Of a stretch of DNA of 64,000 nucleotides, positions 33,484 through 50,853 are shown piece by piece; within the stretch, counting starts at the first letter, position 1, and the number at the start of each line of letters is the position of its first letter. Location: assembly GCA_021779935.1 (NCBI GenBank), contig JAJXZT010000032.1, positions 1-64,000 of the forward strand, given 5' to 3'. The notes under the pieces were generated by a model, which saw only the letters and a list, made by a program, of their open reading frames with translations, was not told the DNA's origin and searched no databases. The translations under genes were made by a program, and so were the position numbers. Source of the DNA: Acidobacteriota bacterium. GTDB lineage: Bacteria > Acidobacteriota > Terriglobia > Terriglobales > Acidobacteriaceae.

Positions 33484-33824
33484 TGACAGTCAGGGTTAAC
33501 GGCGGTGCATTACGTCGTCGTCTCAGCTTCCAGTCGCTCAGTGGCACCCCCAACAGTGTTGGTGAGCGTACTCAGTGGACTGAGTATTACTCGTGTTGGG
33601 GTAGCGTGGACGTGTTACGCGGTCAATTGATTTTTTCCACCGCTGAGTTTATCTCACAGTCTACCTACACCATCACAATCAGGCACCCGCAAGCTATCAC
33701 GTTCAAGGTGGCAGACCACATCGTGTGCGAGGGCAAGACGTTTGAGATTCAATCAATTTTAGACCCTGAGATGCGGCACAAGACGCTTAACTTCCTGTGC
33801 TACGTCATCAACGACGTGGGTTAA
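33483..33824 (+). CDS. phage head closure / head-tail joining protein
   Basis: A 113-residue beta-barrel protein. GALRRRLSFQSLSGTPNSVG, then WTEYYSCWGSVDVLRG and a YTITIRH strand followed by HIVCEGKTFEIQSI, are typical of head-closure proteins (SPP1 gp16 type), which seal the DNA channel before tail attachment. Position after the connector supports it. Confidence 0.82.
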   Translation: MTVRVNGGALRRRLSFQSLSGTPNSVGERTQWTEYYSCWGSVDVLRGQLIFSTAEFISQSTYTITIRHPQAITFKVADHIVCEGKTFEIQSILDPEMRHKTLNFLCYVINDVG

Positions 33825-33828
33825 TGGC

Positions 33829-34643: not shown

Positions 34644-34671
34644 ACCAACCTAAACAGGAGCAACTAACTAT

Positions 34672-35112: not shown

Positions 35113-35138
35113 TCTCCCGCTGTTTAGGTTGGTTTGTA

Positions 35139-35162
35139 CCCCGGTGGGGGAACTCACCGGGG
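35139..35162. terminator. hairpin between tail tube and tail chaperone genes
   Basis: CCCCGGTG (35,139-35,146) and CACCGGGG (35,155-35,162) form a perfect 8-bp stem with an 8-nt loop. There is no T tract; it may attenuate transcription or protect the upstream mRNA. Confidence 0.5.
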
Positions 35163-35184
35163 GAATCGCATTAAAGGGTGAAAG

Positions 35185-35529
35185 ATGAAGACTCCGAAAG
35201 TCGTACCGATGATAAAAGATGTGACCCTGACTATTAAGGGTGTCACATATCGTTTTTTCTTTGACTTCAACGCCATTGCAGCAGCGGAACAACTGACAAA
35301 TCACAGCGTTAATCTGCTTCGAGCTTTGGAGTTTAAGGCGATGACCGCTGCCCAGTTGCGTGCGTTGCTTTACGCCTCGTTGCTCAGGCACCAGCCCGAC
35401 ATCACGTTGGAAGACGCAGGGGGCATGTTGAGCAACCCCATGCATACGGCGTCTATCGTGCAAGCCATCGCTGACGCCTACATGGCCGCGTGTGCGGAGC
35501 CGGAAGAGGGCGACTCAAAAAACGAGTAA
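35185..35529 (+). CDS. tail assembly chaperone, short form (gpG-like)
   Basis: A 114-residue helical protein (VTYRFFFDFNAIAAAEQLT, TAAQLRALLYASLLRHQPD). Siphoviral tail chaperones of this kind bind the tape measure while the tube polymerises. Its end carries a slippery heptanucleotide, so a fraction of ribosomes should continue into the following frame to make a longer form. RBS: AAGGGTGAAAG. Confidence 0.82.
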   Translation: MKTPKVVPMIKDVTLTIKGVTYRFFFDFNAIAAAEQLTNHSVNLLRALEFKAMTAAQLRALLYASLLRHQPDITLEDAGGMLSNPMHTASIVQAIADAYMAACAEPEEGDSKNE

Positions 35530-35885
35530 CCGCTGAGCACTACGACTCAGCGGGGCACTGGATGGCACTGTGGTCAACCGCACTGATTGATTTTGGCTTG
35601 TCCGAGTCACAGTTTTTTGCCCTCACCCCTCGACAGTATCACGCACTCGTGAAGCGCAAGGAGCGGGACATCGAGCATCGTGAGTTACTCGCGGGAATAG
35701 TGGCAAGCACTACGGCTAACTTTTCAATGGGGGCACCCGAAAGGGCATTGAGCCCTAGGGATTTTATGCCCAGTCAGTGGGTAAAGGAACTCCCCGAGCC
35801 CGAGGATGTACGGGCACTGCAAGAATCCCGAATCACCGGATTTTTAACTGGCATCATGCAGCTTCAGGAAACATTAGGGTACTAA
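35490..35885 (+). CDS. tail assembly chaperone, frameshifted extension (gpT-like part of gpG-T)
   Basis: This -1 frame is not expected to start on its own: no ribosome binding site precedes its first GTG at 35,490. It is entered at 35,523 by frameshifting, giving a fusion of about 233 residues (113 from the upstream gene plus 120). The extension (GHWMALWSTALIDFGLSESQ, then LTPRQYHALVKRKERDIEHR and LAGIVASTTANF) has the helical make-up of T-domains that recruit tube subunits. The next gene, as expected, is the tape measure. Confidence 0.8.
   Translation: MCGAGRGRLKKRVTAEHYDSAGHWMALWSTALIDFGLSESQFFALTPRQYHALVKRKERDIEHRELLAGIVASTTANFSMGAPERALSPRDFMPSQWVKELPEPEDVRALQESRITGFLTGIMQLQETLGY
35517..35553 (+). 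promoter_or_regulatory. programmed -1 ribosomal frameshift signal
   Basis: The slippery heptamer A-AAA-AAC (35,517-35,523) is in the correct zero-frame register (TCA AAA AAC GAG TAA). Six bases later a perfect 8-bp stem-loop begins: CCGCTGAG (35,530-35,537), loop CACTACGA, CTCAGCGG (35,546-35,553). The -1 frame is open through to 35,885. All three parts of a classic -1 signal are present, as in the lambda G/GT gene. Confidence 0.88.
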
Positions 35886-35888
35886 ACG

Positions 35889-38204
35889 ATGGCCAACGTA
35901 TTAGCGGGAATCCAAGTACAACTTAGAGCTAACGTCACACCGTTTGCGTCAGACATGGACAAAGCGGCTGCCAAGGCTCGCTCTGCCTCACGTGAGATGC
36001 GTCAAAGTATCACGGAGTCGGCGGAAAAATCCCGTGGCGGTCTTGCAATGCTTGGTGACTCCATAGGTGTGCGCCTGCCGCGTGAGTTGCGCCGGTTTGT
36101 GTCCAAGATGCCAGCAGTATCCCAAGCCATGAATGCCGCTTTTGACGCGGTGATTGTATTGGCACTCATCAATGTAGTGGTGGAGTTGGGCAAGAAAGTT
36201 TACGAGGTAGTCGAGGCATTCAATAAGTCGCGTGAATCTGCGGAAGCAGCTAGCGCGGCATTTGAAAAGGTAGACCACGCCATCCTCGGTCAAAACGAGT
36301 CGCTAACAGCTACTAATGACGAGTTGGACGCAGCTATAGCTAAGTTGAAGGGTAAACCAGAAAACGGGCTCGCCCTCGCGATAGATGACGCACTCAAGGT
36401 TGCAAAGCAACTCAACGATTCCCTCTCGGACTCGGCGGCTAAGATTGAGGCTAATTTTAAAAAGAATGAACTTGGTACATGGTCACTCCCCCGGCTAGCG
36501 ACCGGCGCTCGCGAGACACCGACGGACTGGATGGAACCGATTACGACCCGCGTTACCAGTGCACTAGCCATTATCACCGCTAATGATGACAGGGCAACGG
36601 AGGCAATCAAGGACAAATATGTGGCGCTGCCACAAACCAAGGGAAATCAGGCAAACGAAAATGCAGAACTCCTAAGTCAAAAAAATAGAGTTGCTGGGCT
36701 TCGCCACAACATACTAAATGCGGCTATTGAGGAATTACAGGCGGGTGTTAAAAGCAGAATTGCCGACGCGGCAGAGTACAACTCACATTTGCATAACCCA
36801 AATGGTGCCGATAGAAAAAGCACAGATGTGCTTGAGCAGCAGTATGCGTACTTGAAAGCCCAGTATGAGCATTTAGATACTGGTAACACAACCGCAAAAG
36901 AGATAGTACCAAAGACCTACCAAAAGGACGTGTTGACCCGAGAAGCCGAAGCTAAAAAGGCTGCTGCCGAGGCTACCAAGGCACAGGGCGAGATTGCAAA
37001 AAACACCAAAAAGCAGATTGACGAGCTAAACGCAGCCCTGACCACACTGGCTGAGACCAGTCGAGTGTTTGACACAAACTCGCAACGCCAACGTTTTGCT
37101 GGTGCAAAACTTTCCCCCGACGACCAGAAGATGATGAGTGTTGTGAGTAAATCCACACTTGACTATGTTCGGGCGATTGGCGAGGGTGCGAACATCACAG
37201 ACAAGAACTCCGACGCCCTGAAAGAGCAAAACATTAGATTGCAGTTGGCTAACGGGGCGATCACACAGCAGGAGGCAGCAGCATCCCTAGCTGCCCTGCA
37301 CACCAGTCAGTACAACGCTACGATGGCTGACCTCGACGCACAACTGCAAATCATCGCAAGCATGACACTTCCTGCGATGGAGAAAAAGGCGGCTGAGCAA
37401 AACATTCGCAACGCGAAAAATGTGGCAACGGGACAATACACGCTCCAGCACGGTGCGGACGTTGCGGGCATCAACGACGCTGCAACCACTGCCAGTAAGG
37501 GGATGAACGACTTCTTCCGTGAGTTCCAACGTGACGCTCAGGATTCTGCTAGGACTGTACACGACGCCCTGACTCAGATGATGGATGGCATCAACAGTGA
37601 GCTAACCAAAGCCATCATGGGTGATAAGACCAGCTTTGCTAGCGTCTTTAAATCCGTGGGTGCGACGATGATTAACGCCAGTCTCAAAAAAGCTGAGAGC
37701 GGTGTGCTGAATGCGTTGCATCTGGGTAAGAAAGATGGAAGCAGCGCAGGCAACGCACTGTATGTACAGGTGGTTAATGGCTCAAGCATGGGTCTCGGCG
37801 GTTTGTTCGGTGGCTTAACTTCCGGTGACGGCAGCGACAGCGGTGACAGTGGAGGTGGCAAAGGATTCTTGGGTAAGATCGGTGGATTTTTCGCATCCAT
37901 TTTTGGTGGTCATCACGCCAATGGCGGAGACATTGACCCATACAAGGTAAGCGTCGTCGGCGAGAATGGACCGGAATTGCTTACGGGCGTCCGTGGTCAC
38001 ATTACGCCTAACCACAAAATCGCTGGGATGCTCTCGTCGAACAAGGGGACAAATGTGTACAACATTGACGCTACAGGAACTAACCCAGCGGAAGTAGATA
38101 TGCGTGTTCGTCAAGGTATGACGCAGGCGCACAACCAAGCGGTGGCGACTACCATGCAAGCGGAGCACGAGAAGAATCGTCGTCGTCCGCAGTCGTTCAG
38201 GTAA
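35889..38204 (+). CDS. tail tape measure protein
   Basis: A 771-residue protein that sets tail length and leads DNA into the host. The start (VLAGIQVQLRANVTPFASDM, then KAARSASREMRQS-type repeats) is the common TMP head; residues about 40-115 include a hydrophobic helix (AFDAVIVLALINVVVELG). Long coiled coils follow, then a Gly-rich hinge (LGGLFGGLTSGDGSDSG) and the usual end GGHHANGGDIDPYKVSVVGE with GPELLTG. The size predicts a tail of about 110-120 nm by the usual 0.15 nm per residue. Starts 4 bp after the chaperone frame. Confidence 0.88.
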   Translation: MANVLAGIQVQLRANVTPFASDMDKAAAKARSASREMRQSITESAEKSRGGLAMLGDSIGVRLPRELRRFVSKMPAVSQAMNAAFDAVIVLALINVVVELGKKVYEVVEAFNKSRESAEAASAAFEKVDHAILGQNESLTATNDELDAAIAKLKGKPENGLALAIDDALKVAKQLNDSLSDSAAKIEANFKKNELGTWSLPRLATGARETPTDWMEPITTRVTSALAIITANDDRATEAIKDKYVALPQTKGNQANENAELLSQKNRVAGLRHNILNAAIEELQAGVKSRIADAAEYNSHLHNPNGADRKSTDVLEQQYAYLKAQYEHLDTGNTTAKEIVPKTYQKDVLTREAEAKKAAAEATKAQGEIAKNTKKQIDELNAALTTLAETSRVFDTNSQRQRFAGAKLSPDDQKMMSVVSKSTLDYVRAIGEGANITDKNSDALKEQNIRLQLANGAITQQEAAASLAALHTSQYNATMADLDAQLQIIASMTLPAMEKKAAEQNIRNAKNVATGQYTLQHGADVAGINDAATTASKGMNDFFREFQRDAQDSARTVHDALTQMMDGINSELTKAIMGDKTSFASVFKSVGATMINASLKKAESGVLNALHLGKKDGSSAGNALYVQVVNGSSMGLGGLFGGLTSGDGSDSGDSGGGKGFLGKIGGFFASIFGGHHANGGDIDPYKVSVVGENGPELLTGVRGHITPNHKIAGMLSSNKGTNVYNIDATGTNPAEVDMRVRQGMTQAHNQAVATTMQAEHEKNRRRPQSFR

Positions 38205-38213
38205 GGGTGAGGC

Positions 38214-39314
38214 ATGTTTATTTCGACGTTTCAAGGCGCACAGTTTTCGTGGGGTACGGGTTACAACGTCGTGCTCACCAGTGGGGCTGGCGGCCCGAGT
38301 GACCAGTGGTTACAGTTCGGCTGCCCAACGCTAACATCCACCCCAACGCTGGATTACACGGGACTGGATGGAGTGCCCATTGCTGGCACCATCATCACCT
38401 GCTCCGCATGGCTTAACTCATCCTCACTGACGGGGCACCCGACGGATGGTCACAACTGGACTACCGGCGTCGGCATTGTGTTCAACCTATACGATGGTTC
38501 CCAATCATTCGTCACCGCTGCCACAATCCCCGCTGGTCAGACATGGACAAAAGTGTCCGGCACGGTGACGGTACCGGCAAACGCCAAAACAATGGCAGCG
38601 TACCTGGCCCTCGATATGGCGGCTGCCTCCGAGGCACCAAGCCTGTATTCGCTGGCTGCTGGTATCACCTACGCGGTCGGATTTAACGGGTACACGATCA
38701 TACCCATGCCCACTACTGCTGTTCCCATGCAACTGGACATGGAGATTACCGACTCGGTGGGTGTGGTTCAGTCACCGTTTACGTTGCAAAGCCAATTCCA
38801 GCAGTGGCCGGGTGCAGAGCAGTGGACATGCAATGTTGGCTTGCCCCCGGTTACGCGGGGCACATCCGACTCTTGGATAAGTTGGTACATGGCGTTGCAA
38901 GGCATCCTCAACACTTTTTTCATGGGGGACTTCTCCCACACCGTACCCACGGGCACCGCTCTGGGCACTCCACTGGTGGATGGCACCAGCTTGGGTTACA
39001 ACTTGCCAACGTCTTACTATCTGCACACCAAGGGATGGACGGCAAACCAACCCGCTGTGCTTAATCCCGGTGACTATCTCCAGATTGGTGTCAGGTTGCA
39101 TCGCATCGCTGGATTCGTACCTGTCAATTCAGACCAGACGGGCAACGCCGTGATTCCTATCTGGCCTGCCATACGTGAACAGCCCGCTGACAACCAGCTA
39201 GTTATCCTCAATCATGCACGGGGGCTATGGCGGTTGGCAGACAACAAACGTGTGTGGACGGAACGCCCAACAAAAGTTTTGGGGTTGAGTTTCAAAGCTA
39301 GCGAGGCACGATAA
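38214..39314 (+). CDS. distal/minor tail protein with inserted carbohydrate-binding-like module
   Basis: 366 residues. The second half (from about residue 170) has the plan of a phage distal-tail protein: LQSQFQQWPGAEQWTCNVGL, WYMALQGILNTFFMGD, GTALGTPLVDG and a final IWPAIREQPADNQLVILNHA. Residues about 64-158 look like a beta-sandwich carbohydrate-binding module (SSLTGHPTDGHNW, WTKVSGTVTVPANAKT, PSLYSLAAG). A closely similar module is found in the giant tail-tip protein (about residues 1343-1430), so the two share a duplicated domain. It may help contact surface sugars. Confidence 0.72.
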   Translation: MFISTFQGAQFSWGTGYNVVLTSGAGGPSDQWLQFGCPTLTSTPTLDYTGLDGVPIAGTIITCSAWLNSSSLTGHPTDGHNWTTGVGIVFNLYDGSQSFVTAATIPAGQTWTKVSGTVTVPANAKTMAAYLALDMAAASEAPSLYSLAAGITYAVGFNGYTIIPMPTTAVPMQLDMEITDSVGVVQSPFTLQSQFQQWPGAEQWTCNVGLPPVTRGTSDSWISWYMALQGILNTFFMGDFSHTVPTGTALGTPLVDGTSLGYNLPTSYYLHTKGWTANQPAVLNPGDYLQIGVRLHRIAGFVPVNSDQTGNAVIPIWPAIREQPADNQLVILNHARGLWRLADNKRVWTERPTKVLGLSFKASEAR

Positions 39315-39892
39315 TGAGTGAACGCGGACTTACAACTGACCAAGTAACTGTGGTCAACTCGCCCGTCATCCATCCCGCCATGTTGTTTGACCTGACCTTT
39401 GCCGATAATATTTACCACGTATGGCTTGGCATCGGGAGTCTGGTAGTTACAGACCCGGTGACTCTTGTCCAAACAACTTATTTAGGTGTGGGGACTCTGG
39501 GCAAGCTGTCAGCTATTGAAGAGGGTGTCACCGTAGAGGCACGGGGCATAAACCTTACCCTGTCAGGGATTGACCCATCGCTACTGGCTGAGTCCATGGG
39601 TGAAATCAATCTCGCGTCACGCGCCAAGGTGTACTTGGCTTTCCTGTCATCCGCTGGGCAACTGGTGGATAACCCCATCTGCATTTTTAGCGGCATCATG
39701 GATGCACCGCAGATCGACATGGACACCAAAACAGCGAGTATCTCTATCGATGTGGAAAATAAAATGGTTGATCTTAACCGAAGCCGTGGTGGTCGCCTCA
39801 CCGACCAAGACCAGAGAGCCCGATACCCCAATGACAACGGGCTCAAATGGACGAGCTACAACACCGACCGCAACCTAGTGTGGAAGGCATAA
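39314..39892 (+). CDS. minor tail protein (DUF2163-like)
   Basis: 192 residues. MLFDLTFADNIYHVWLGIGS, YLGVGTLGKLSAIEEGV, LTLSGIDPSLLAESM and a VENKMVDLNRSRGGR segment followed by LTDQDQRARYP form the usual pattern of a minor tail or hub protein found just upstream of tail-tip genes. The end (YNTDRNLVWKA) is also characteristic. The ATG overlaps the previous stop. Confidence 0.75.
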   Translation: MSERGLTTDQVTVVNSPVIHPAMLFDLTFADNIYHVWLGIGSLVVTDPVTLVQTTYLGVGTLGKLSAIEEGVTVEARGINLTLSGIDPSLLAESMGEINLASRAKVYLAFLSSAGQLVDNPICIFSGIMDAPQIDMDTKTASISIDVENKMVDLNRSRGGRLTDQDQRARYPNDNGLKWTSYNTDRNLVWKA

Positions 39893-39894
39893 CT

Positions 39895-40332
39895 GTGTCT
39901 AGGGTTGACCGTTGGGAACTATCACTACAGGATTATCTAGACTCGCGCATGGAGATGCCGTTTGAGTATGGCACCCATGATTGCGTGATGTTCGTACTGG
40001 GGGCAATCAGTTGCTTGTTGGGTGTGGATGTCACCGAGGGATACCTGGGCACCTACAAGACCGCAAATGGTGCGTTACGCAAGATAAAAAAAGCCACGGG
40101 TGGCACCACGGTTGTGGCTGTCATGGACTACCTCGCAAAAACATATCCCGACGCCATTAAACGTGCCTCAAACGTACTAGCTACTAGACGCGGGGATGTT
40201 GTTTGTGTGGAAAACAACGGCGAATTGTCCCTAGGCATCGTAAGTTTCAACGGGAAATATGCGTGGTTTGTCGGGGAAAAGTTGACGCCCATACGCGTAG
40301 CAACCTGCATCAAAGCTTGGCACATAGGATAG
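39895..40332 (+). CDS. tail assembly protein (DUF6950-like)
   Basis: 145 residues from GTG 39,895, which has GGAAGG at 7 nt; the frame to 39,847 lies inside the preceding gene. MEMPFEYGTHDCVMFVLGAI, then YLGTYKTANGALRKIKKATG and ATRRGDVVCVENNG, match the DUF6950 pattern, distantly like NlpC/P60 with Cys and His (HDC) at the helix start. It may be a peptidase or a structural relative near the tail tip. Confidence 0.7.
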   Translation: MSRVDRWELSLQDYLDSRMEMPFEYGTHDCVMFVLGAISCLLGVDVTEGYLGTYKTANGALRKIKKATGGTTVVAVMDYLAKTYPDAIKRASNVLATRRGDVVCVENNGELSLGIVSFNGKYAWFVGEKLTPIRVATCIKAWHIG

Positions 40333-40351
40333 AAACCCCAGAGGTAACACA

Positions 40352-43300
40352 TTGGCGAAGATAATCATGGGAGCGGCTCTCATAGCCGCTGCGGTCACGG
40401 TGGAGGTTGCCTCAGGCGGCACGATGTCCGCCCTCGCCCTGCGTATGGGTATGATGGGCGGTGGAATGCTCATGTCAGGCATCGCTGCTGCCATGCAGGG
40501 TGGTGGCGTAAGCATGAGCCAGTCGGTGAAAAATCCTGCTGGCACCCGGCAGTCTATTTATGGGCAGACCCGCACCAACGGCACCGTCATCTATATGTCT
40601 TCGATTGGGCACACCATCAATCAGGTGGTGGCGTGGGCATCCCATCCTTGCGAGTCTGTCGATTACATCTATGCCGATGGTCGTCAAGTCTACTTTTATG
40701 GCGGAGCCACTGAGGGCTACTGTGATGGAAGTAAGCACACAGACCCATCGGGTAACGTCTACAGTTTCCGGGCATCCAGTGGTAACTATAAGTTTGCCGC
40801 GTGGTCTACTCTCGGCTCTTACTCGGGACACTGGATTAGTCAGCTAGGTACAGGTGCGGCTCCACCAAGCAACGACTCCAACATCAATGGAGACCCTAAC
40901 TGGGATTCAACATGCACCCTAAATGGCATCTGTGCCACCTATGCTGCGGCGGTTTACGACGCCACGATTTACTCCAGCATTCCCCAGATCAAGGCGGCGA
41001 TTAAGGGAAAAAACGACATTTTCGACCCGCGCCTTGGCCCACTCAACACAGATGGCACGGTCAATCCCGCCTATTGTGGGTGGACGGACAACGCTGCTCT
41101 CGTCATAGCTGATTTTCTCGTCAACACCGATTACGGCATGGCGTACACATGGGATGAGATTGATATTCCTCAATTAATCGCTGCTGCCAACATCTGTGAC
41201 ACGCCTATTGCTCTGGCTGATGCCACCGTAACCAACGCTTTCCAAGCGTGGCAAAGCAACTATGCTTATGTGTTGGGTCAGACAATCCTCGACTCAAATG
41301 GTCGCCAACAAACAGTATCGGGATACACATACATGACATCGGGCACACCCACGTCAGGTAGCGGTCATCCCATCTGGCAGGTTGCGTCGGGGCAATACAC
41401 CACTGACCATGACATTATCTGGTTGTCCGGCGCAATGGGAGCGACGACCACTGAAAAACAATACACCATCAATGGAGCGGTGGACTGGGCAGAGTCACCG
41501 GGCAATACGCTGACTCAAATGCTTGACGCTTGCGCTGGTCGCATCTCCATCTGGAATGGCAAAGTACAGATTTTCCCCGGTGCATGGTATGGCACCACCA
41601 CGTCGTTTGGGTTGGGGGACATTGTAGGTAAAGTAAGCTTTAAAAAAGCCAAGTACCGCGACATTTGCAACGCTGTCAGGGCGAAATACATCTGCCCAAG
41701 CTACCCATACAACCTTGTTGGTTATGACAAGAATCATCCCGCCTCTGGCATCTTCGACGGGCAATACCAACCGCAAGACGCACCAGAGTATGCGCAGGAC
41801 TCACTTCACGGATACGCGAGTGACGCCAACCTTGCGGCTGACGGTGGCGTGAAACTCTATCAGGATAAGAGCTACAAATTTGTGACCTCATGTGGGCAAG
41901 CGCAAAGATTGATGAAAATCTATCTTCTCCGCTCGCGCCAGATGTGGTCAGGAACAATTCGCGTCAACGCGAAGGGTCTGCAAAATGTTCCCAACGATGT
42001 CATCAAGCTGACCATCCCGCAATACGGGTGGAATAACAAACTGTTTGAGATTGTTGCTGTCCGCCATATCCCGGAAATCAGCGATAACAATCCTCCCGTG
42101 CTGTATTGGGAGTTTGACCTTGTCGAGACAGACCCATCCGTCTACACGTGGTCAATCGCAGAAGAGCGCACACAGGTTAACAGCGCGTCGCCTCGCCTTG
42201 ATGAGCCACGCACCAACGTGGTTGACATCACCGGCTTAACGCTGGAGTCCGACATCACCACTGCGGTGGTCTCTCTCGATGGCATTGTCTCGCCTCGCAT
42301 CAAAGCGACGTGGACAGAGCCCTTCGACTCTTACACCACGTCGGGTGGTTCCATCGCCGTACAGTTTCAAAAGGTTGGAGACACCGACTGGAAAACACTT
42401 GGCAAACTGCCGGGAAACGTAACCCAGACATACATCACTGCTGCTGAGGGAGTGGTAGCGGGGCAAAGCTACAATGTCGCCGTTCAACCAATCCACGGTG
42501 GCGGAGCGGCTGGCGACTGGACGGTGCAAACAATCACCGTCCCAGACCAACTCTCAAACATCTCGCTCAACATCGTGAGCGACAGCCCCGAGTACATCCG
42601 TACACCGGCTGGTGGTGCCCCTATTGTTGGTGCCGGGGACTTAGGTGCAACCCCCAACGCAAACACAACCGACGCTGCTATCAACTACGGTAGCGTCATT
42701 GCGGGTGGTGCTGCATTGCCCGGTGGCGTGAACTCAACGTACACCTACGCCCGTTGGACGGGCTACCTCATCCCCAGCGTTTCTGGCTCCTATCAGATTG
42801 GCTGTAACTTCAGCGGTGGCTGCAATCTGTTTATCGCGCAAGTACCGGCAATCTACATGCTCAACGCCAACGCGACGGCGAACCCGAACCCCAACACATT
42901 CATCCAGTACAGCAGCGTAACGCTGCAAGCTGGCACACCCTACCAAGTGGTGTTGGAATGGGCACAGGGCACAAACCCTGCTGAGTTACAGCTATTGTGG
43001 CTCGCACCGGGTGCGGGGTCAGTGTGCTTGATTCCAGCGGCAAATCTGTCTACGTCTTGGACATCGACAAGTGGCAATCTTTCGGGTAAGTGGTGGAATG
43101 GTACGTCGGGATTGTGGTATCCGACTGGAGCCAACCACATTGATTTTTCATCACCAACACACATTGGCAAGACGCAGGACAACATCCCCGATGGAAGCAA
43201 CTATCACCGCGTACTGGGCACCTACACCAATGGAAACCGCCCAGTAATCAATTTGGCTGATGGTATCCACGTCAATGTAGATGGTACCCACATCCCGTAT

Positions 43301-46300
43301 GGTTCGGGTGGAACGTTGGACTCACTGAAACCGGCTGAGGCTGGAGCGGAAGTAACCACAGGTAAACCCATCGACATCCTTGCCGATGGTGTGTACAAAC
43401 GCTCGTTCCAGACCCACGGTTTGTGCAACAACTACTCGGTGTCTGGCTCGCGCACGGGATGGGGTGTGGGTGGGTCTCTGACAGCGACAACCAAGGATGG
43501 AAACACCATCACTGCTGACGGTGTCACTACGTCGGGAAACGTCGCGGTGTGGTCGGACTACATTCCGGTGGACCCGGCACAAACCTATAAGGTCTCGTTG
43601 TCCATCTCATGCACAAATACGATTGGTACGCGGTACTTCGGGATGATGGCATACGACGCCAACAAAAATGTGATTGCAGTTGACCAGTTCGACATCCCAA
43701 GTCGCACGTTCAACGCGAGCACTACAAATCCATATTTTTGGTGGGGCGCTGACGCCGCAAACACATGGCGTGACATCGTAGCTTACATTGTTGGCTACAA
43801 TACCCCCGTGTCTGCGGTACCAGCGGGTCGTAATGCGTTTTTGAACTTCCGGCTTCCGAGCAACACAGCGTACGTCCAAATCCGCTACTTAAACTACGAT
43901 AACGCTGGCACCACAACCACCGCCTTTTTCTATTCGCCATCGATGGTGTCTACTGACACCGTGGGTGACGTTGATGGTCTGAACGATGGTGGAACCTATC
44001 ACCGCACGATAGGCACCTATGTTAGTGCGGGTCGTCCTGTCATCAACTTGGCTGACGGCATCCACCAAAACGTCAACGGAAGTTACATCCCGTATGGTTC
44101 GGGTGGGACACTGGACTCACTGAAACCAGCAGAATCCGGGGCAACGCTCGGCGCAAGCTGGGGCACCAACGTCTCGAACCAACCACAAGACTTGCACAAC
44201 CTTATTCTACACCCGGCATTCTCGACGGTTACGGGGAGCGACTCAACGTGGGGTCAACCTACAGTCGCGGTGACAGGGCAGGATTTCCCCGTAGCTCTGA
44301 AAGCAACAACACGCGATGTAAACGAGACAGGTAACCAATTCCCGGTTGTGGCTGGCGAAAAATACTTTGTCTCCGCGACGTTCAATTCTCAAAATTTAGT
44401 AGGTCACCCTAGTGATGGTGGGTCGTGGAATACACGTATAGGGCTGCTGCTGTATGACAAGACAAGCACCCCCACATGGGCGGCTGGCGCAAGCGTCGCG
44501 CCGGGTAGCAACTGGACAACGGTGTCAGGAACCGTGACCATCCCGGCAGGGTACGTCACAGCGGTGCCGTGGTTGCAGATCGACGGCTCCGCTACTAGTT
44601 TCACGCCATCTCTGTACTCGTTAGCCACCAACCTGTACATCGGAAAATATCAACCGGGTGCGGACATCACGGCTGGGAACGACCTATCCGTGCTCGTTGG
44701 TCGCACGGCTGATAAACTGCTCTACGGTAACGGTATGGCTGTGGAGGCTTTACGGCCAGCCGAGGCTGGTGCGGAAGTAACCACGGGTAAAGACCTGTCC
44801 GTCCTCTCAGGACGTACGGCTGACAAACTGAACTATGTAAGTGGAGCTACTGTTGACTCGTTGAAACCGGCTGAGGCTGGTGCAGATGTCACAGGGGCTA
44901 ACACATCGGCAGACACAGCCGCCGTATCGGGCACGTTGGCATCCAGTGTAGTGGGAAACCTGTCGGGAACACACATCCTCACCAATCCAGACTTTGCAAC
45001 TCTGACGGGCTGGAGTGTGTACGACAACCTCACATCGGGCAACGTCTATCTAACCTTGATCGCCGACAGCGCAGCACCCAACACGTCGGGAAATAAGCTA
45101 CAGGTCGCCTACGTCAACAACGGTGCTGGCATCTCTCCGGGTTGGGGTGGGTTCACCTGCCAAGTCTACCCGGACAGTGGCGTGGCACAACCCAACAAGT
45201 ATCACCGGGGGTCAACGCTGGTATGGCGTGTCATCGCCAACATCCCGGTTGGCTACACAATTAATTTTGGTGGCAACCCGGTGGGGACAGGGTCGGTGCA
45301 AACATCACTATCCTCGATGGCGGGTACAGGCACATGGACAGAGTATGTGTGGCGGTTACAGATTGGGAACAGCGGCACATTTAGCACCACGGGATTCGTT
45401 TATCTGACGGGCGGCTCGGTGGCGGCAACATGGTATGTAGCAGTGTGCGAAGCCATCGACATCACCGCACCGACACAACTGTATGGCAGCAAGGTCATCT
45501 ACAGCAGCGGTAACAAGATGGACGACCTAGAGCCGCTGGAGATGGGTGCAGAGAAAACCACGGGTAAAGACTTGTCCGTGCTCGTTGGTCGCACGGCTGA
45601 CAAGCTTAACTATGTAAGTGGAGCTACTGTTGACTCACTAAAACCAGCCGAGGCTGGTGCAGAAGTGACCACGGGTAAGTCGCTGGACATTTTGAGCGAC
45701 GGTGCAACCTATCGCCGTATCAAATTTGTGGCTACAGATGGCACGCTGCACACGTCGTCTGTGCTCAACGCACAAGGTAGTGTCGCGCCGACACAGCCAG
45801 TTGCATATAGCTACACCTACACGAGCAACAGCATCACGTTGACCGTGCCAGCACAATCCCTGATGCGCATGGACGGGACATCTTTGTCCATCGCGTACCA
45901 GACATACACGTGGTCGTCGCTGTCGGCAAGCACAACGTATTTCATTTATGGGTATGTGGATGCCGTGAGCGGGACACTAGGATTTACCAATCCCAATCCA
46001 CCAAGCACAACGGCTAGCGTCGTGTACGCCACGCAGGCTTACTACGATGGGCGCGTACCCATTCCAGCATTCTCCGTGACTACCACGGCGGTCGGACTAC
46101 CCGCCGGTGGTGGCACCGACACGGGTGGTGTGTGCCCTGAAGCTAACGTGTTGGTTGATGTTCAGGGTAAAGGTAACGTTCGGGCTGGTGATGTTGTGGT
46201 TGGCGACTACCTCCGGGGCAAGTGTTTTGCCACTGGGTTGGACACGTACCGCAAAGTAATTAAGGTCAGCAGCACCTCGAACCACCAGTGGCGTGTGGTG

Positions 46301-46504
46301 AACGGCTACCGCGTTACGCCAACGGAGCCCGTGTGGTTCAACGACGCATGGACACCCGCCTACAAGGTAGGACAACAGAATTCCTTCAACGGGCAACGAG
46401 TGGACATCACGCTGGAATCGGACGAGTACGACGAGCAAAACTACTACGTGGTGGGCGAAGCTGCGGAGCTACTGATACACAACGCCATCATCATGAGTTG
46501 CTAA
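40352..46504 (+). CDS. giant tail-tip / host-specificity protein with C-terminal Hint (intein-like) domain
   Basis: 2,050 residues, starting at TTG 40,352 with GAGGT 7 nt upstream. Residues 1-50 carry a hydrophobic helix with Gly/Met zippers; about 60-600 are the tail-hub part (DFLVNTDYGMAYTWDEIDIP, FDLVETDPSVYTWSIAEERT). About 647-730 is FN3-like and 750-900 PA14-like (YTYARWTGYLIPSVSGSYQI). The middle has six PAEAGA repeats and a carbohydrate-binding-like module (about 1343-1430) shared with the 38,214 gene. The last 123 residues form a Hint domain: Cys1928 in GGVCPEANVLVD, RAGDVVVGDYLRG, VTPTEPVWFNDAWTPAYKVG and terminal IHN (Asn2044). Block B normally reads TxxH; here it is T1989-x-x-E1992. 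Autoprocessing of the tail tip is possible but untested. Confidence 0.8.
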   Translation: MAKIIMGAALIAAAVTVEVASGGTMSALALRMGMMGGGMLMSGIAAAMQGGGVSMSQSVKNPAGTRQSIYGQTRTNGTVIYMSSIGHTINQVVAWASHPCESVDYIYADGRQVYFYGGATEGYCDGSKHTDPSGNVYSFRASSGNYKFAAWSTLGSYSGHWISQLGTGAAPPSNDSNINGDPNWDSTCTLNGICATYAAAVYDATIYSSIPQIKAAIKGKNDIFDPRLGPLNTDGTVNPAYCGWTDNAALVIADFLVNTDYGMAYTWDEIDIPQLIAAANICDTPIALADATVTNAFQAWQSNYAYVLGQTILDSNGRQQTVSGYTYMTSGTPTSGSGHPIWQVASGQYTTDHDIIWLSGAMGATTTEKQYTINGAVDWAESPGNTLTQMLDACAGRISIWNGKVQIFPGAWYGTTTSFGLGDIVGKVSFKKAKYRDICNAVRAKYICPSYPYNLVGYDKNHPASGIFDGQYQPQDAPEYAQDSLHGYASDANLAADGGVKLYQDKSYKFVTSCGQAQRLMKIYLLRSRQMWSGTIRVNAKGLQNVPNDVIKLTIPQYGWNNKLFEIVAVRHIPEISDNNPPVLYWEFDLVETDPSVYTWSIAEERTQVNSASPRLDEPRTNVVDITGLTLESDITTAVVSLDGIVSPRIKATWTEPFDSYTTSGGSIAVQFQKVGDTDWKTLGKLPGNVTQTYITAAEGVVAGQSYNVAVQPIHGGGAAGDWTVQTITVPDQLSNISLNIVSDSPEYIRTPAGGAPIVGAGDLGATPNANTTDAAINYGSVIAGGAALPGGVNSTYTYARWTGYLIPSVSGSYQIGCNFSGGCNLFIAQVPAIYMLNANATANPNPNTFIQYSSVTLQAGTPYQVVLEWAQGTNPAELQLLWLAPGAGSVCLIPAANLSTSWTSTSGNLSGKWWNGTSGLWYPTGANHIDFSSPTHIGKTQDNIPDGSNYHRVLGTYTNGNRPVINLADGIHVNVDGTHIPYGSGGTLDSLKPAEAGAEVTTGKPIDILADGVYKRSFQTHGLCNNYSVSGSRTGWGVGGSLTATTKDGNTITADGVTTSGNVAVWSDYIPVDPAQTYKVSLSISCTNTIGTRYFGMMAYDANKNVIAVDQFDIPSRTFNASTTNPYFWWGADAANTWRDIVAYIVGYNTPVSAVPAGRNAFLNFRLPSNTAYVQIRYLNYDNAGTTTTAFFYSPSMVSTDTVGDVDGLNDGGTYHRTIGTYVSAGRPVINLADGIHQNVNGSYIPYGSGGTLDSLKPAESGATLGASWGTNVSNQPQDLHNLILHPAFSTVTGSDSTWGQPTVAVTGQDFPVALKATTRDVNETGNQFPVVAGEKYFVSATFNSQNLVGHPSDGGSWNTRIGLLLYDKTSTPTWAAGASVAPGSNWTTVSGTVTIPAGYVTAVPWLQIDGSATSFTPSLYSLATNLYIGKYQPGADITAGNDLSVLVGRTADKLLYGNGMAVEALRPAEAGAEVTTGKDLSVLSGRTADKLNYVSGATVDSLKPAEAGADVTGANTSADTAAVSGTLASSVVGNLSGTHILTNPDFATLTGWSVYDNLTSGNVYLTLIADSAAPNTSGNKLQVAYVNNGAGISPGWGGFTCQVYPDSGVAQPNKYHRGSTLVWRVIANIPVGYTINFGGNPVGTGSVQTSLSSMAGTGTWTEYVWRLQIGNSGTFSTTGFVYLTGGSVAATWYVAVCEAIDITAPTQLYGSKVIYSSGNKMDDLEPLEMGAEKTTGKDLSVLVGRTADKLNYVSGATVDSLKPAEAGAEVTTGKSLDILSDGATYRRIKFVATDGTLHTSSVLNAQGSVAPTQPVAYSYTYTSNSITLTVPAQSLMRMDGTSLSIAYQTYTWSSLSASTTYFIYGYVDAVSGTLGFTNPNPPSTTASVVYATQAYYDGRVPIPAFSVTTTAVGLPAGGGTDTGGVCPEANVLVDVQGKGNVRAGDVVVGDYLRGKCFATGLDTYRKVIKVSSTSNHQWRVVNGYRVTPTEPVWFNDAWTPAYKVGQQNSFNGQRVDITLESDEYDEQNYYVVGEAAELLIHNAIIMSC

Positions 46505-46512
46505 GGACACGT

Positions 46513-48030
46513 ATGCAAAATATTTGGATGTTATCGCCGACAGCTATAGATGGAAGTGGGAACACTTACCCCACTTGCAACGCCTACGCATCGGCATGGA
46601 CATGCCCCGCATTTCCAGTTGCAGCGGGGACACCCGCACCTATCGTGCATGTGCAGGATGCGGCTGGCACTTCCTCGTGCACCTTTGGAAGCAGCGTCGC
46701 TGTGGGCGACTTGATCTTTGTCACGGTGGTGTACGGCTGGACAACCATCGGAGCCCCGAGCACAACGGTCGCGGTCACCGACAATGGGGGTAATAATTAT
46801 TTTCGCCCTGTAGAGGCTGATGCCCTTATGGACTCATCCACGGGTAACGGGGGCATGGTGTTCGCCAATTTTTACACAATTGCGACGGCTGCCGCCACAA
46901 CCATTACTGCCAGCGTGACTGGCGCAACCACCCTGTCTGTAAAAGCACACGAATACAGCGGTGTGGACGGGGTCAAGCCCCTGTTGGTCACCAACGCTGG
47001 CTACAGCGGACTACCGAAAAACACAGCGGTGTACACAGCGCCCACGCTGACGGTACACATTCCCGTTACTACTGCGGGTGAACTTATTTTTGCAGTGGGA
47101 GGCGCGTCGGCAAACCTCGGCGTGACCTGCACCACGGGTTACACCCTGCGAGACACCACCACCTACACCGTGTCCCCCGCGACGTGGACAACGCACGGAT
47201 GGGAGTTGATAAGCAGCGGTGGGGACTCCAGTGTGTCGTTCACGGCGACCGGAACATCTGATTCAAACTCCGCCCTGTGGGGTTACCTGTTTTGTTTCCA
47301 GCCGAAAGTGCAACCCACTGGTCTAGGACTTGTGTGGTGCCAAAGCACCGACACACAGATTGCGGCTGCCAATGCCGATAGCACCATAACCGTGTGCCCC
47401 ACAGACTATAACCAGATGGCACCCAAGGTGGTCACCGATAGCTACTATGCACAAGGTGCCATCACGGGTATGTCAATGGCGTCGCTACTGTCGCTGCTAG
47501 GTTCCACGTACACACCCGGGTATCTGGTAGACCCGACGGTACTAAACGTCACCAAGTCATTGCCTTACTACATGCCGACTGGCACCAGCAGCACGCTACT
47601 TACGCAGAGTGCAATGATGTTGGCCGCCAATGGTATCCTCATCACGCCGATGAGCCTGCCCTATCCGGTGACGTTCTCTCAAATTTATGCCGCGCTGAGC
47701 GGTACTGATACCACCAATCTGCACAGCTTTGGAATTTACGACATCGCCGGAAACCTGATTGTGGCTGCGACGCCGACCGTTTACCCAAGCAATGGTGTGT
47801 TTGGTGTGTCTACGACCGTGCTAAGTGCGGGTGTGTATTACGTGGCGTGGACGTGCAATGGAACCACAGCGGTCACCCTGCCGGGGGTCTTGCAGGTTGT
47901 GCCCGGCTGGATGATGCAGGGCACAAGCAGCCAAGCAAGCGGTGGCGCTCTGCCAGCAACAATTAGCACACCACAAGAGGCAAACTTGCAGCCGGTGTCG
48001 GCACCTGTGCTGGCGATTGGCTTATTCTAA
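46513..48030 (+). CDS. tail-associated receptor-binding-like protein
   Basis: 505 residues from ATG 46,513 (AAGGA upstream). It is beta-rich, with Ig-like modules (GDLIFVTVVYGW, VAVTDNGGNNYFRP, TTAGELIFAVGGASANLGVT). The C-terminal part (from about 370) resembles fibre-like beta repeats (LYPVTFSQIYAALSG, TVLSAGVYYVAWTC). It directly follows the tail-tip gene, where spike or receptor-binding proteins reside. There is no known enzymatic motif. Confidence 0.65.
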   Translation: MQNIWMLSPTAIDGSGNTYPTCNAYASAWTCPAFPVAAGTPAPIVHVQDAAGTSSCTFGSSVAVGDLIFVTVVYGWTTIGAPSTTVAVTDNGGNNYFRPVEADALMDSSTGNGGMVFANFYTIATAAATTITASVTGATTLSVKAHEYSGVDGVKPLLVTNAGYSGLPKNTAVYTAPTLTVHIPVTTAGELIFAVGGASANLGVTCTTGYTLRDTTTYTVSPATWTTHGWELISSGGDSSVSFTATGTSDSNSALWGYLFCFQPKVQPTGLGLVWCQSTDTQIAAANADSTITVCPTDYNQMAPKVVTDSYYAQGAITGMSMASLLSLLGSTYTPGYLVDPTVLNVTKSLPYYMPTGTSSTLLTQSAMMLAANGILITPMSLPYPVTFSQIYAALSGTDTTNLHSFGIYDIAGNLIVAATPTVYPSNGVFGVSTTVLSAGVYYVAWTCNGTTAVTLPGVLQVVPGWMMQGTSSQASGGALPATISTPQEANLQPVSAPVLAIGLF

Positions 48031-48040
48031 GGATTTACAC

Positions 48041-48226
48041 ATGTCGATACAGTACGAAAATAAGATGATGCAATTCTTCCCGACTGCGAAGCCCGATACC
48101 CGTAAGATTATCTGTAAAGGCGGCGCAGCCAGTGTAATTGCGGACGGGGATAAGTGCCCGTCTGGACGGCACAACACGAAGTTAACAGATTGCTGGTGTA
48201 CCGAGCATGACTCGAAAACTAAATAA
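48041..48226 (+). CDS. small Cys-rich phage protein
   Basis: 61 residues from ATG 48,041 with AAGGA upstream; the longer frame lies inside the previous gene. Contains CKGG, DKCPSGRH and DCWCTEH, so possibly metal-binding. Function unknown. Confidence 0.5.
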   Translation: MSIQYENKMMQFFPTAKPDTRKIICKGGAASVIADGDKCPSGRHNTKLTDCWCTEHDSKTK

Positions 48227-48244
48227 CTAACTAAGGCTCCCAAA

Positions 48245-48607
48245 ATGAACACCCCTCGTCACTTCCTGCGTCTAACTCTACACGTACTAACTATCGTGCT
48301 CTGCTTGATGATTTTTGCCAAGGCTGACTCGTTCGCTGGGAGCCCAACTAGGCACCAAAAAAATGTGGTCGTGCGGTCTTACACTGGCTCGGACTATGAC
48401 CAAGTACAAGACCAGCGGTTGGACAACCTAGACAACGTCCTGAGTGAGATGCGAAAGTCCAGCGATATACAAGGTCAGAAAATAGCCGAGCTAATGGCGG
48501 TGACAGACCAGTGGATGGGTGGGATAAAAGCCCTGATGGGGCTGCTAGGACTGACGAGTATTGTTGGGTTGGGACTTCAAATAAACGACCGCAGAAAACG
48601 ACCCTAG
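48245..48607 (+). CDS. small membrane protein, possible second holin or antiholin
   Basis: 120 residues with an N-terminal hydrophobic segment (LTLHVLTIVLCLMIFAKADS, signal-like), a charged, coiled-coil-like central part (QDQRLDNLDNVLSEMRKSSD) and a C-terminal transmembrane helix (MGGIKALMGLLGLTSIVGLG). It lies after the tail genes, separate from the left lysis cassette. Topology fits a holin or inhibitor, but it could also be an accessory membrane protein of the lysogen. Confidence 0.5.
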   Translation: MNTPRHFLRLTLHVLTIVLCLMIFAKADSFAGSPTRHQKNVVVRSYTGSDYDQVQDQRLDNLDNVLSEMRKSSDIQGQKIAELMAVTDQWMGGIKALMGLLGLTSIVGLGLQINDRRKRP

Positions 48608-48662
48608 AGGGCAGGAATCAGGCCCTTGCACGGAGAACCGTACTAGATAGTAGGGGGAGACC

Positions 48663-49283
48663 GTGAAGCCTGAAACCCAATTTGTTCCACCAAAAACTGC
48701 TGATGAATTTTTTGACCGCTTCCCGTTGGCGGTCCACAACTTTGTACACAAAAACCCGCGCATACCCTACGCGATGAAAGATGATCTCGTGCAGGAGCTA
48801 TCGCTCAAACTGGTTAGGAGCCGCGTTATCGAAGCGTTTGACCCTGCGAAAACGGGGGGCAGCGACGCTGGATTGTTTTTCAATTTCGTACACATGACCA
48901 TGCGCCGTGAAATTGTGAACCGCATAAATAGGGACAGGCGCGACGCGCACGGGCACTTAATAAACTACGTGGACGAGACCCCAGAAGAAGTCAAAAAGCA
49001 GCTTCACAAGGCGGAGGTTGAAACCGCCACCATACCCGACCATGGGACCCAGGAATTTCGGGATTTTGTCGAGGCGCACCGCCCGTATTTACTGGACACA
49101 TTGGACATGCTGCTGGCGGGGTACACATTGCCCGAAATTGCAGAGGCATATGGGGTGCGTGCCAGTGCAATCGATTACCGCCGTAGGCACCTGCGCACAC
49201 TATACCGGGTCATGGTGGCTGGACGGGTGCCCGCCACTGTACGCCGAGGAAGACCGCCCCACATGATGACGAAAAAACAGTAA
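48663..49283 (+). CDS. phage sigma-70-like protein with regions 2 and 4
   Basis: 206 residues. MKDDLVQELSLKLVRSRVIE with FFNFVHMTMRREIVNRINRD resembles sigma region 2, and DTLDMLLAGYTLPEIAEAYG with RASAIDYRRRHLRTLYRV resembles a region 4 helix-turn-helix. The tail is basic (VRRGRPPHMMTKK). GTG 48,663 has a very good ribosome binding site (GGGGGAGACC), the same as that of the integrase gene. It may direct late transcription of the phage or act in the lysogen. Confidence 0.6.
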   Translation: MKPETQFVPPKTADEFFDRFPLAVHNFVHKNPRIPYAMKDDLVQELSLKLVRSRVIEAFDPAKTGGSDAGLFFNFVHMTMRREIVNRINRDRRDAHGHLINYVDETPEEVKKQLHKAEVETATIPDHGTQEFRDFVEAHRPYLLDTLDMLLAGYTLPEIAEAYGVRASAIDYRRRHLRTLYRVMVAGRVPATVRRGRPPHMMTKKQ

Positions 49284-49326
49284 GTAAATTCCGCTGCTGC
49301 CAGCCCCTATGTAGAGGGCGCAAAAA

Positions 49327-49539
49327 ATGAAAACCAAGGAAGCAGCGAAGAAAGCAATGAAAAAACCACCGGCAACCGAGCAACTAAAAGCGATGACACC
49401 CACACGTGTGAAACGCGAAATACAGGCACTCGAATATTTGTATGAACACGGTGATGCTCAGCTCTACAGCGATGCTTGGTACAACGAGCAAAGGGCTCGG
49501 ATACACGAGGCGTCAAGCCTGTGGGCCAAAAAACGCTAG
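49327..49539 (+). CDS. small basic phage protein
   Basis: 70 residues, Lys/Ala-rich start (KTKEAAKKAMKKPP), then a helix with RVKREIQALEYLYEHG. The 3' end overlaps the end of the convergent integrase gene by 27 bp. Could be a DNA-binding accessory factor such as an excisionase, but no family match is seen. Confidence 0.45.
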   Translation: MKTKEAAKKAMKKPPATEQLKAMTPTRVKREIQALEYLYEHGDAQLYSDAWYNEQRARIHEASSLWAKKR

Positions 49540-50700
49540 AGGGAACTCAACCTGCTGCACCCATGCCTGTAACCTTCCCCGGCTAAGGCAAGCCATATAC
49601 CTCATGGTACTTTCCACATCTCGGTGCCCCATGAGTCGCATAACGTCAGGCACCGGGGTGTGCTGACGCAGGTGTGTTGTGCAAAAGGTTGCGCGAAATG
49701 TGTGTGGGTGAGCCTTGTCCATCGGCACGACGTTGCCATTCCGCTTGTTCACCTTCCTAAAAAGTGCCTGCACGTCGTCCCACAGTTGTAGCAGTGGTTT
49801 GCCACTCGCGGTGTGGAACACGAGGTCGTACTTCGCCGTCTGTTTGAGATGCTTCAATTTTTCCAGTGTCTCCGCTCTTAGGGGGATGTCCCGGCAGTGA
49901 TGCTTTTTTGGGGTGTACCCCCATTCTGGTCGTGGCTGAACGCGGATGATGCCCTCATTAAAAATGACATCTTTCCAGCGAAGGGTTTCGATTTCCTGTT
50001 TTCGCAAACCACACGTGAGCAGTACCTCATATCTAAGCACCTTATGCGGGGGGCAAACCGACCAAAAGTGCCTCAACTCCTCATCCTCGAACGCAACCGG
50101 GTCCTTAACCGAGTACGCAGGGGCGTCGCGGGTGGTAAGTAGGGCACCTAGGCCCTGCGACTGTAGAAACTGACGCAGATGCAGGAATTTGTTAAACCTT
50201 GTGCGGTCGCTGTTGCCCCTTTGCCTGAGGTAGGCGTTGACATACTGCAAGCAGTGCTTTCGCGTGACGGCGGAAAGCAGTTTGACACCTTTGCACGAGG
50301 CACAAAACTCGTCCGCCACTAGGCGTTTGGCGTCGTAGGTGTCGCGGTGAAAACCCCCATCCTTTATTTCATCTAGCCAAGCGTCAAGCTGACCGCGTAA
50401 TGTCCCTCCCACAACTGGTGTGGTGTCACCACTGGCTAGGGTGCCCCCGCTGGATACGGTTAATAGCTCACCGCGCCTCAACATCAGGGCTCGGAAAGCG
50501 TCCTGTGGGTCGTCTCCCACGGGTTCCCATCGGCGAGCAAAGTGCAAATAATACTGACCCTCCCGGATGACTTGGTCGCCCGTAGGGGTCAGGACAGCGT
50601 GGGGCTTAATTCGATTGTTTGGGTAGAAAACGGCGCGGCAGTAACGCCAGCCGGTGGACAGTGGAACATATTTGTAAAGTTGGACGCTTCGGTTCGACAT
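49513..50700 (-). CDS. int: tyrosine-type phage integrase
   Basis: 395 residues. The catalytic residues are present: Arg233 in CGLRKQEIETLRW, His333-x-x-Arg336 in HPHTFRATFC, a GHRDVESTMRYMA box and Tyr368 as nucleophile. Residues about 105-195 form the core-binding domain (HRDTYDAKRLVADEF and LQYVNAYLRQRG). It recombines the attachment cores in tRNA-Leu. GGGGGAGACC precedes ATG 50,700. TGTTAGGA repeats 60-80 bp upstream lie in its promoter region and may let the integrase repress itself. Confidence 0.93.
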   Translation of the reverse strand: MSNRSVQLYKYVPLSTGWRYCRAVFYPNNRIKPHAVLTPTGDQVIREGQYYLHFARRWEPVGDDPQDAFRALMLRRGELLTVSSGGTLASGDTTPVVGGTLRGQLDAWLDEIKDGGFHRDTYDAKRLVADEFCASCKGVKLLSAVTRKHCLQYVNAYLRQRGNSDRTRFNKFLHLRQFLQSQGLGALLTTRDAPAYSVKDPVAFEDEELRHFWSVCPPHKVLRYEVLLTCGLRKQEIETLRWKDVIFNEGIIRVQPRPEWGYTPKKHHCRDIPLRAETLEKLKHLKQTAKYDLVFHTASGKPLLQLWDDVQALFRKVNKRNGNVVPMDKAHPHTFRATFCTTHLRQHTPVPDVMRLMGHRDVESTMRYMACLSRGRLQAWVQQVEFPLAFFGPQA

Positions 50701-50761
50701 CGGTCTCCCCCGTGTGCTTACTACTGTGTTTTTGGGAAACCGAGAACAAATCTCTAAAAAT

Positions 50762-50793
50762 TGTTAGGAAGAGTGTTAGGATGCGCTTCCTAA
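50762..50793. repeat. right arm-type integrase sites
   Basis: TGTTAGGA at 50,762 and 50,774, plus an inverted CTTCCTAA at 50,786. The same octamer occurs three times at the left end of the element, so these are the likely arm-type sites of the integrase. Confidence 0.6.
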
Positions 50794-50799
50794 TCCCTC

Positions 50800-50829
50800 A
50801 AAAACCCCAATAATACTGCGGTTATTGGG
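50800..50829 (-). terminator. phage-borne terminator placed after host tRNA-Leu
   Basis: On the minus strand CCCAATAA and TTATTGGG (50,806-50,829) form a perfect 8-bp stem with an 8-nt loop, followed by GTTTTT. It starts 6 bp after the tRNA 3' end and so replaces the host terminator moved away by integration; it also shields the integrase gene from tRNA transcription. Confidence 0.8.
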
Positions 50830-50835
50830 TGAATC

Positions 50836-50853
50836 TGGTGCCGAAGAAGGGAC
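50836..50853. other. right attachment site core
   Basis: 18 bp identical to 15,311-15,328, covering the CCA end, acceptor strand and part of the T stem of tRNA-Leu. This is the junction with the intact tRNA. Confidence 0.9.

Follow-up and report, generated by a model that had tools for sequence, protein, structure and literature searches.

Among the described Hint domains, those closest to the element considered here are the type A bacterial intein-like (BIL) domains, in which cleavage dominates and splicing without a nucleophile at the +1 position is possible (PMC4031507). The His residue of block B (motif TxxH) is missing from a small subset of the known inteins (PMC7765530, PMC6333167), and it is replaceable in a working intein, as Lys compensates for it in Tko CDC21-1 (PMC7765530); a further precedent for replacement of the His is an Ssp DnaB mutant with bulky -1 residues (PMC7765530, PMC6333167). 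The present work concerns a Hint domain at the C-terminal end of a lambda-gpJ-like tail-tip protein, which is encoded by a prophage in a stretch of 64,000 nucleotides (positions 1 to 64,000 of contig JAJXZT010000032.1, assembly GCA_021779935.1; referred to as the window) from a soil bacterium of the Acidobacteriota (family Acidobacteriaceae). All relatives of this domain that were found contain Glu at block B, and their sequences suggest a tail protein which may be cutting itself by an unusual chemistry. It is probable that this BIL-like domain serves as a one-shot self-processing device of the tail tip, the chemistry of which we infer throughout; what the data show is the predicted fold, the conserved motifs, purifying selection and the coupling to a neighbouring gene. 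The features of the domain and its carrier, with their positions in the window, are as follows:

40352..46504, plus strand: gpJ-like tail-tip protein of 2050 aa, the Hint carrier (phrog_5616 tail fiber match; position after tail genes)
45902..46132, plus strand: conserved region and Gly-rich linker (..GGGTDTGGV), ending at residue 1927 (alignment, n=8)
46133..46483, plus strand: Hint domain, Cys1928 to Asn2044 (AF2 model, Foldseek, VIA-align and alignment)
46133-46135, plus strand: Cys1928, Hint residue 1 and block A nucleophile (invariant in the alignments; structure-aligned ranges that start there meet intein residue 1 or hedgehog Cys258)
46316..46327, plus strand: block B, Thr1989-Pro-Thr-Glu1992 (TPTE), replacing TxxH (Glu in 24/24 members and in L034)
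46433..46441, plus strand: block F-like Glu2028-Gln-Asn2030 (Asn invariant, acidic residue at minus two)
46478..46483, plus strand: block G His2043-Asn2044 (invariant; many structure-aligned ranges end there)
46484..46501, plus strand: C-terminal tail AIIMSC, Ala2045 to Cys2050 (every member read ends in Cys or Ser)

When the open reading frame was read again, every residue named in the original prediction (viz. Cys1928, TPTE, His2043-Asn2044 and Ala2045) was confirmed; its start at 46130 corresponds to Val1927, and Cys1928 itself begins at 46133. The claim of a Hint domain with Glu in block B, for which a fold check had been proposed, is borne out by fold prediction and by conservation. A first AlphaFold2 (AF2) model based on 7 sequences had a predicted local distance difference test score (pLDDT) of 72 and already matched BILs and inteins, and the final model, obtained from 18 natural sequences and no templates, has a pLDDT of 88.2 and a predicted TM score (pTM) of 0.81. 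In Foldseek searches, 13 PDB entries are matched at E ≤0.001 and all of them are Hint domains, the top match being Tetrahymena BIL2 (6y75, E 2.9e-5, TM 0.71), and the C. thermocellum BIL 2lwy is matched with a TM of 0.72. Comparison by VIA-align gave Z 13.9 for BIL2 (120 residues, root mean square deviation 2.4), Z 13.1 for hedgehog 1at0, and Z 11.0-13.9 among the matches listed (50 entries). The output of VIA-align consists of the first and last aligned residues only, and in 14 of these 50 matches the aligned range is exactly from the model Cys to Asn (11..127), as in the alignment of the model with residues 1..440 of the Mtu RecA intein; in the remaining matches listed, the range extends into the flanks, or begins or ends a few residues off. 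Ranges beginning at the model Cys (residue 11) meet intein residue 1 or hedgehog Cys258. According to the model, the domain is thus a Hint fold with its reactive ends placed as in inteins. Within it, the predicted strands 69-71 and 76-79 flank TPTE in a strand-loop-strand arrangement, and the assignment of Glu1992 to block-B position 10 rests on these predicted strands together with the motif order C..GD..V(S/T)PxE-P..W..A.

At the sequence level, the relationship to known Hint families is faint. The domain matches Pfam Vint (PF14623) at E 0.004-0.014 with 15.6-17.5 bits (17.2 bits for the window member) versus a cut-off of 27, and matches to Vint at E up to 1 are seen in 3/18 members, with a best E of 7.6e-5. 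No useful match to the Hint-domain end was obtained from PHROGs and NCBIfam, and sequence searches of the PDB yielded no Hint relative of this domain. Its own relatives are located in prophages and viral contigs, with the named hosts being Acidobacteria. Strong relatives showing 35-56% identity were identified by whole-genome protein searches at five places in four other genomes of the same bacterial family, and further members came from IMG/VR and GTDB scans; the first GTDB contig scan gave 34 pattern matches of which none is a relative, and the second gave 3 loci, all titled Acidobacteria. When a 7-row profile was used on a phylum-wide sample of 396 genomes, only the domain's own genome was found among the matches listed, in which no more than 10 candidates were scored for any genome. 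The 50,697 phage records contained no match to the window Hint domain at E up to 1, and the Hint domain of another Glu-type member (L038, from the soil bacterium Acidobacteriaceae bacterium KBS 96) gave a single insignificant match there (E 3). The weak genome-search matches which were read (L007-L010 and L020-L022, with 14 others left out) are not Hints.

In a 16-sequence alignment that includes the window, the residues C, P, D, G, R, W, V, E, A, N, H and N are invariant, and C, E and HN are still invariant when 18 sequences are aligned. A motif scan, which presupposes Cys, S/T-P/Q and HN and leaves block B and the last residue free, found Glu in 24/24 distinct members. A 25th member, L034 (C..VTPCE..IHNFFVLPC), is kept outside this pattern by an insertion, and with its inclusion Cys1, the block-B Glu and His-Asn are all retained in the 25 distinct members read, block B being [S/T]-[P/Q]-x-Glu in place of TxxH in every one of them. 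Some of the scans used DNA patterns with the Glu built in, and those scans alone cannot test the invariance of Glu. However, Cys, Glu and HN are also kept in 5/5 of the strong relatives, which came from whole-domain similarity searches not demanding Glu, and a scan with only the partner gene described below, whose query rows were taken from Hint-bearing loci and included no Hint sequence, revealed an upstream Hint with Cys, Glu and HN at 13/13 loci, with six of the distinct Hints being new. Of the 20 closest pairs of sequences, nine are unsaturated at synonymous sites. The ratio of nonsynonymous to synonymous rates (dN/dS) lies between 0.06 and 0.13 for seven of these and equals 0.21 for the other two, the values being rough as several pairs have a dS above 1. 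Due to the invariance of Glu and the low dN/dS, this residue should be interpreted as a signature of the family and not as a sign of decay. A chance resemblance is excluded by the conservation and the fold, and a decayed intein by the invariant Glu, Cys1 and HN and the low dN/dS. This is also the main correction to the interpretation in the original prediction, which is partly supported and for the most part right: the Glu is a fixed family trait. The constant Cys or Ser at the protein end and the coupling to a small gene had likewise escaped that prediction.

Compared with type A BILs, the domain is similar in its Hint fold, Cys1, terminal His-Asn (25/25) and a +1 residue that is neither Cys nor Ser in any of 24 members; it differs from them in its block-B Glu, in having only 5-8 residues behind HN, which end in Cys or Ser, and in its carrier, a tail-tip protein of a phage, to which a gene further downstream is coupled. 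The Tko CDC21-1 intein presumably has Cys1, as does the tail-tip Hint. It likewise lacks His at B:10; however, it has a compensating Lys and two flanking exteins (PMC7765530), whereas the tail-tip Hint has a fixed Glu, lacks a C-extein protein and rarely has a +1 nucleophile (Thr in 3/24). The domain also differs from class 1 inteins, in which +1 is Cys, Ser or Thr, as the window member has Ala and the only such residue seen among the 24 members is the Thr just mentioned. Class 3 inteins have no Cys1 and are characterized by a W-C-T triad. In contrast, Cys1 is invariant here, and HN is preceded by Ile, Val or Thr rather than by a fixed Thr. The hedgehog Hog domain is also a C-terminal Hint with Cys1 (1at0, see above), but only the N-terminal step takes place in Hog (PMC7664689), and there is no room here for a sterol recognition region, as the protein ends 5-8 residues past HN. 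The likeness to Vint is limited to the weak profile match, with the window member under the cut-off, and Vint belongs to eukaryotic VWA proteins (PMC2362128). Outside the Hint domains, the outline of a self-detaching domain on tail fibres and spikes is shared by the peptidase S74, or intramolecular chaperone, autocleavage domain, which by analogy is the nearest functional counterpart that we have met (PMC7824862). The S74 domain employs Ser/Lys chemistry and has an unrelated fold.

As Cys1 and HN are both invariant, both ends of the domain are probably reactive, and the following sequence of events may be envisaged. Cys1928 would attack the preceding bond, and the resulting N-S acyl shift would produce a thioester behind the Gly-rich linker. 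The role of the block-B His would be taken by Glu1992 through a hydrogen bond accepted or donated at the scissile amide, since Glu as a carboxylate could accept such a bond and protonated Glu could donate one. Hydrolysis of the thioester, or its resolution by another nucleophile, would free the tail-tip protein at the Gly-rich linker, and cyclisation at His2043-Asn2044 would remove the short terminal peptide. Re-joining of the terminal peptide may be a minor outcome, as in type A BILs. The likely use of such a device is in timing, with the domain capping the growing tail tip and being shed, or leaving a processed end, during assembly, and with a small partner protein perhaps acting alongside it. 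Earlier, normal splicing had been considered to be ruled out for this domain; this was an overstatement, because type A BILs with HN and without a +1 nucleophile can splice (PMC4031507) and some inteins without the block-B His remain active (PMC7765530, PMC6333167).

Several observations weigh against self-processing of this kind, or against the placement of its residues. Four of the 24 members have Pro at +1, and Pro after Asn should hinder C-terminal cleavage. The termini of the final model (residues 1-8 and 130-133) have pLDDT <50; in a sequence-only comparison with two canonical inteins of the same bacterial family block B was left unaligned, and a gapless test of the block-B register was weak (mean z 1.94 and 0.64). 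Further, many inteins cannot do without the block-B His (PMC6333167), and no example of Glu was found in the parts of the intein literature on this residue that were examined. One could also interpret the domain as an inactive structural Hint, serving as a tail-tip cap or docking knob, in which Glu marks the loss of catalysis. The family-wide absence of the block-B His would fit this, as would the location at the extreme C-terminus without a C-terminal passenger protein and the lack of Hint-like motifs at the ends of 16/20 other loci read in a control search with the J core of the window, although some of the frames at these loci are broken or partial. However, Cys1 and His-Asn are chemical rather than folding residues, and their retention in 25/25 members along with purifying selection in close pairs makes an inactive domain unlikely.

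For phage biology, the proposed self-processing by this Hint, if correct, would mean that a tail-tip host-recognition protein matures through an additional step, accompanied by a coupled gene. The fixed Glu, both reactive ends and purifying selection together would also offer a clean test of a His-free N-S acyl shift, and the Glu-type Hint may yield a small cleavage tag. In the open full-text literature, which excludes subscription papers and preprints, no paper on a Hint in a gpJ-like tail-tip protein was seen among those listed; where papers were checked, the Hint is described as part of terminase, helicase or toxin proteins, or is not reported at all.

The tail behind HN comprises 5-8 residues, after which the protein ends. 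The +1 residue is of eleven kinds among the 24 members (M4, Q4, P4, T3, N2, Y2, and L, W, G, F and A once each), none of them Cys or Ser. The last residue, however, is Cys in 13 and Ser in 11 members. The last codons are TGC (9), AGC (9), TGT (4), TCG (1) and TCA (1), followed by the stop codons TAA (18), TAG (5) and TGA (1), and the use of Ser from both codon boxes indicates that selection acts on the terminal amino acid. An origin of the terminal Cys/Ser as a by-product of the ribosome site that serves the following gene (TGC TAA GGA) is ruled out by the varied codons and stops, and a general disulfide switch between Cys1 and a terminal Cys by the presence of Ser as the last residue in 11/24 members. 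A fixed terminal Cys/Ser is not described in the portions of the BIL and intein literature examined. On one reading it may be a displaced nucleophile, and on another the tail may be recognised by an assembly partner. In a more specific form, to which we give little credence, this residue would act as a +n nucleophile to which the Cys1928 thioester passes its acyl group by way of a larger ring; after Asn cyclisation, the amino end of the freed peptide would capture the acyl, and the tail tip would be spliced back onto its own C-terminal peptide or passed on to the partner protein described below. If true, a terminal nucleophile along with the block-B Glu would represent one more kind of Hint chemistry, devoted to the completion of the receptor-binding tip of a phage.

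The tail-tip gene is directly followed by the partner gene:

46513..48030, plus strand: partner gene, 505 aa, directly downstream of the tail-tip gene (profile matches at 46513-46632 and 47299-47508)

In the 18/18 members aligned, the partner gene begins 2-14 bases past the Hint stop codon, and in 17/18 the partner is 109-120 aa long, the common pattern being a W near the start, L-S/T, P..P, a QDPR-like stretch and AY. The partner in the window differs from the 17 others, as the small conserved protein is interrupted in it by an insert of ~230 aa and is C-terminally extended; the insert is possibly a receptor-binding domain insertion, and insert and extension would suit a virion display protein. 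The coupling of this gene with the Glu-type Hint is observed consistently: the partner profile is found in 5/329 genomes, where all 6 of its places (including the window) are beside a Glu-type Hint, and at 13/13 viral loci it is likewise beside the Hint. The phage records contained no match to the L038 partner (113 aa) at E up to 1. The control search with the J core of the window gave matches in 23/329 genomes and missed three of the five Hint genomes (G169, G187 and G261), and this control therefore covers only the window's kind of J. Twenty J-core loci from 18 of the 23 genomes were read (G092, G098 and G311 were left out), and besides the 16 noted above, four (L104, L107, L109 and L110) end in Hint-like domains of a Thr type. 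In the first downstream frame over 60 aa at each locus (none is present at L103), clear similarity to the partner was seen at 0/20. A possible homologue of the partner is encoded by the 112-aa gene behind L104: the two align over 69 columns with 30% identity, the E value being 0.0098 when 6 rows are used but 0.3 when 11 are used.

The coupling can also be explained by phage synteny, with both genes borne by one phage lineage; the partner may then be a common tail protein, or a chaperone of the tail fibre, unlinked to the Hint in function. This explanation, which concerns the partner alone and is compatible with self-processing by the Hint, has in our judgment slightly less than an even chance of being correct. 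Gene order in tail regions is generally conserved, other small genes follow the Hint-like J ends at L107, L109 and L110 in the same bacterial family, and a large insert and C-terminal extension such as those of the window partner might be found in a virion display protein. However, the partner occurs solely beside Hint at the genomic places and viral loci counted above, whereas J-core homologues lacking this Hint also occur in this bacterial family, and at the 20 loci read the first downstream frame is never a clear partner.

The presence of a coupled small gene would also fit a hedgehog-like transfer, in which an outside nucleophile would resolve the Cys1928 thioester and the tail tip would become covalently joined to the partner or to the host surface. 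The flexible Gly-rich linker immediately ahead of Cys1 and the location on a host-recognition protein are in accordance with such a transfer. However, no Cys or Lys of the partner is invariant across the 11 sequences aligned, and no adduct is known. Hog domains, further, need no terminal HN, which is invariant here, and a transfer of this kind is thus considered quite improbable.

The Thr-type Hint-like ends are present in the four J homologues listed above and at L113-L116. They form the ends of virion or hypothetical proteins in the Xanthomonas phages LucasX, XacN1 and PhiXhv-12 and in Stenotrophomonas phage DLP_6, and they also occur in two viral contigs. Most of them lie behind a Gly-rich linker, those of the large phages being behind Gly runs. 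They resemble the Glu type in that Cys1 and HN are present, the block-B His is lacking and the C-terminal tail is short, but they differ in having Thr at the B:10 position. A comparison of the two types by hhalign gave E 0.0033 and a probability of 9.6% over 18 columns, all in block A; with the alignment limited to these columns, a sequence link that would establish a common origin is not obtained. Of the 8 Thr-type sequences, only 1 gives a match to any of the Pfam families of Hint domains (Hint_2, E 0.0012). If the Thr type holds up, His-less C-terminal Hints may be a recurrent feature of phage tail proteins.

The remaining features of the carrier and its surroundings are:

42731..43018, plus strand: PA14 domain, residues 794-889 of the tail-tip protein (Pfam, 32.4 bits versus a cut-off of 24)
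15311..50853, no strand assigned: prophage holding the locus, ~35.5 kb, apparently complete (18-bp exact repeat at both ends)

The gpJ-like assignment of the carrier is based on its profile match, with residues 362-736 matching phrog_5616 tail fiber at E 4.8e-54 in a PHROG profile search, and on its location after the DUF6950 gene, the order 5' of the tail-tip gene being tape measure, distal tail protein, tail protein and DUF6950. Gly-rich linkers ahead of Cys1 are also seen in other members of the family. Between the domains of the tail-tip protein, a SLKPAEAGAEVTTGK-type motif occurs six times (43322-45680). The genome containing the locus is a bacterial assembly of 4.49 Mb, in which the prophage is bounded by exact 18-bp repeat copies at 15311 and 50836, the right copy lying at the 3' end of a tRNA-Leu(CAG) gene (50836-50922, minus strand). 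An integrase gene is located within the prophage at 49513-50700, and terminase, portal, protease, major head protein and adaptor are also encoded. Near the right end of the prophage, the gene at 48663-49283 has a weak match to an RNA polymerase sigma factor (PHROG E 4.4e-4). Elsewhere in the window, very long open frames are present on opposite strands of the same DNA, at 59959-62976 (minus) and 60157-62958 (plus).

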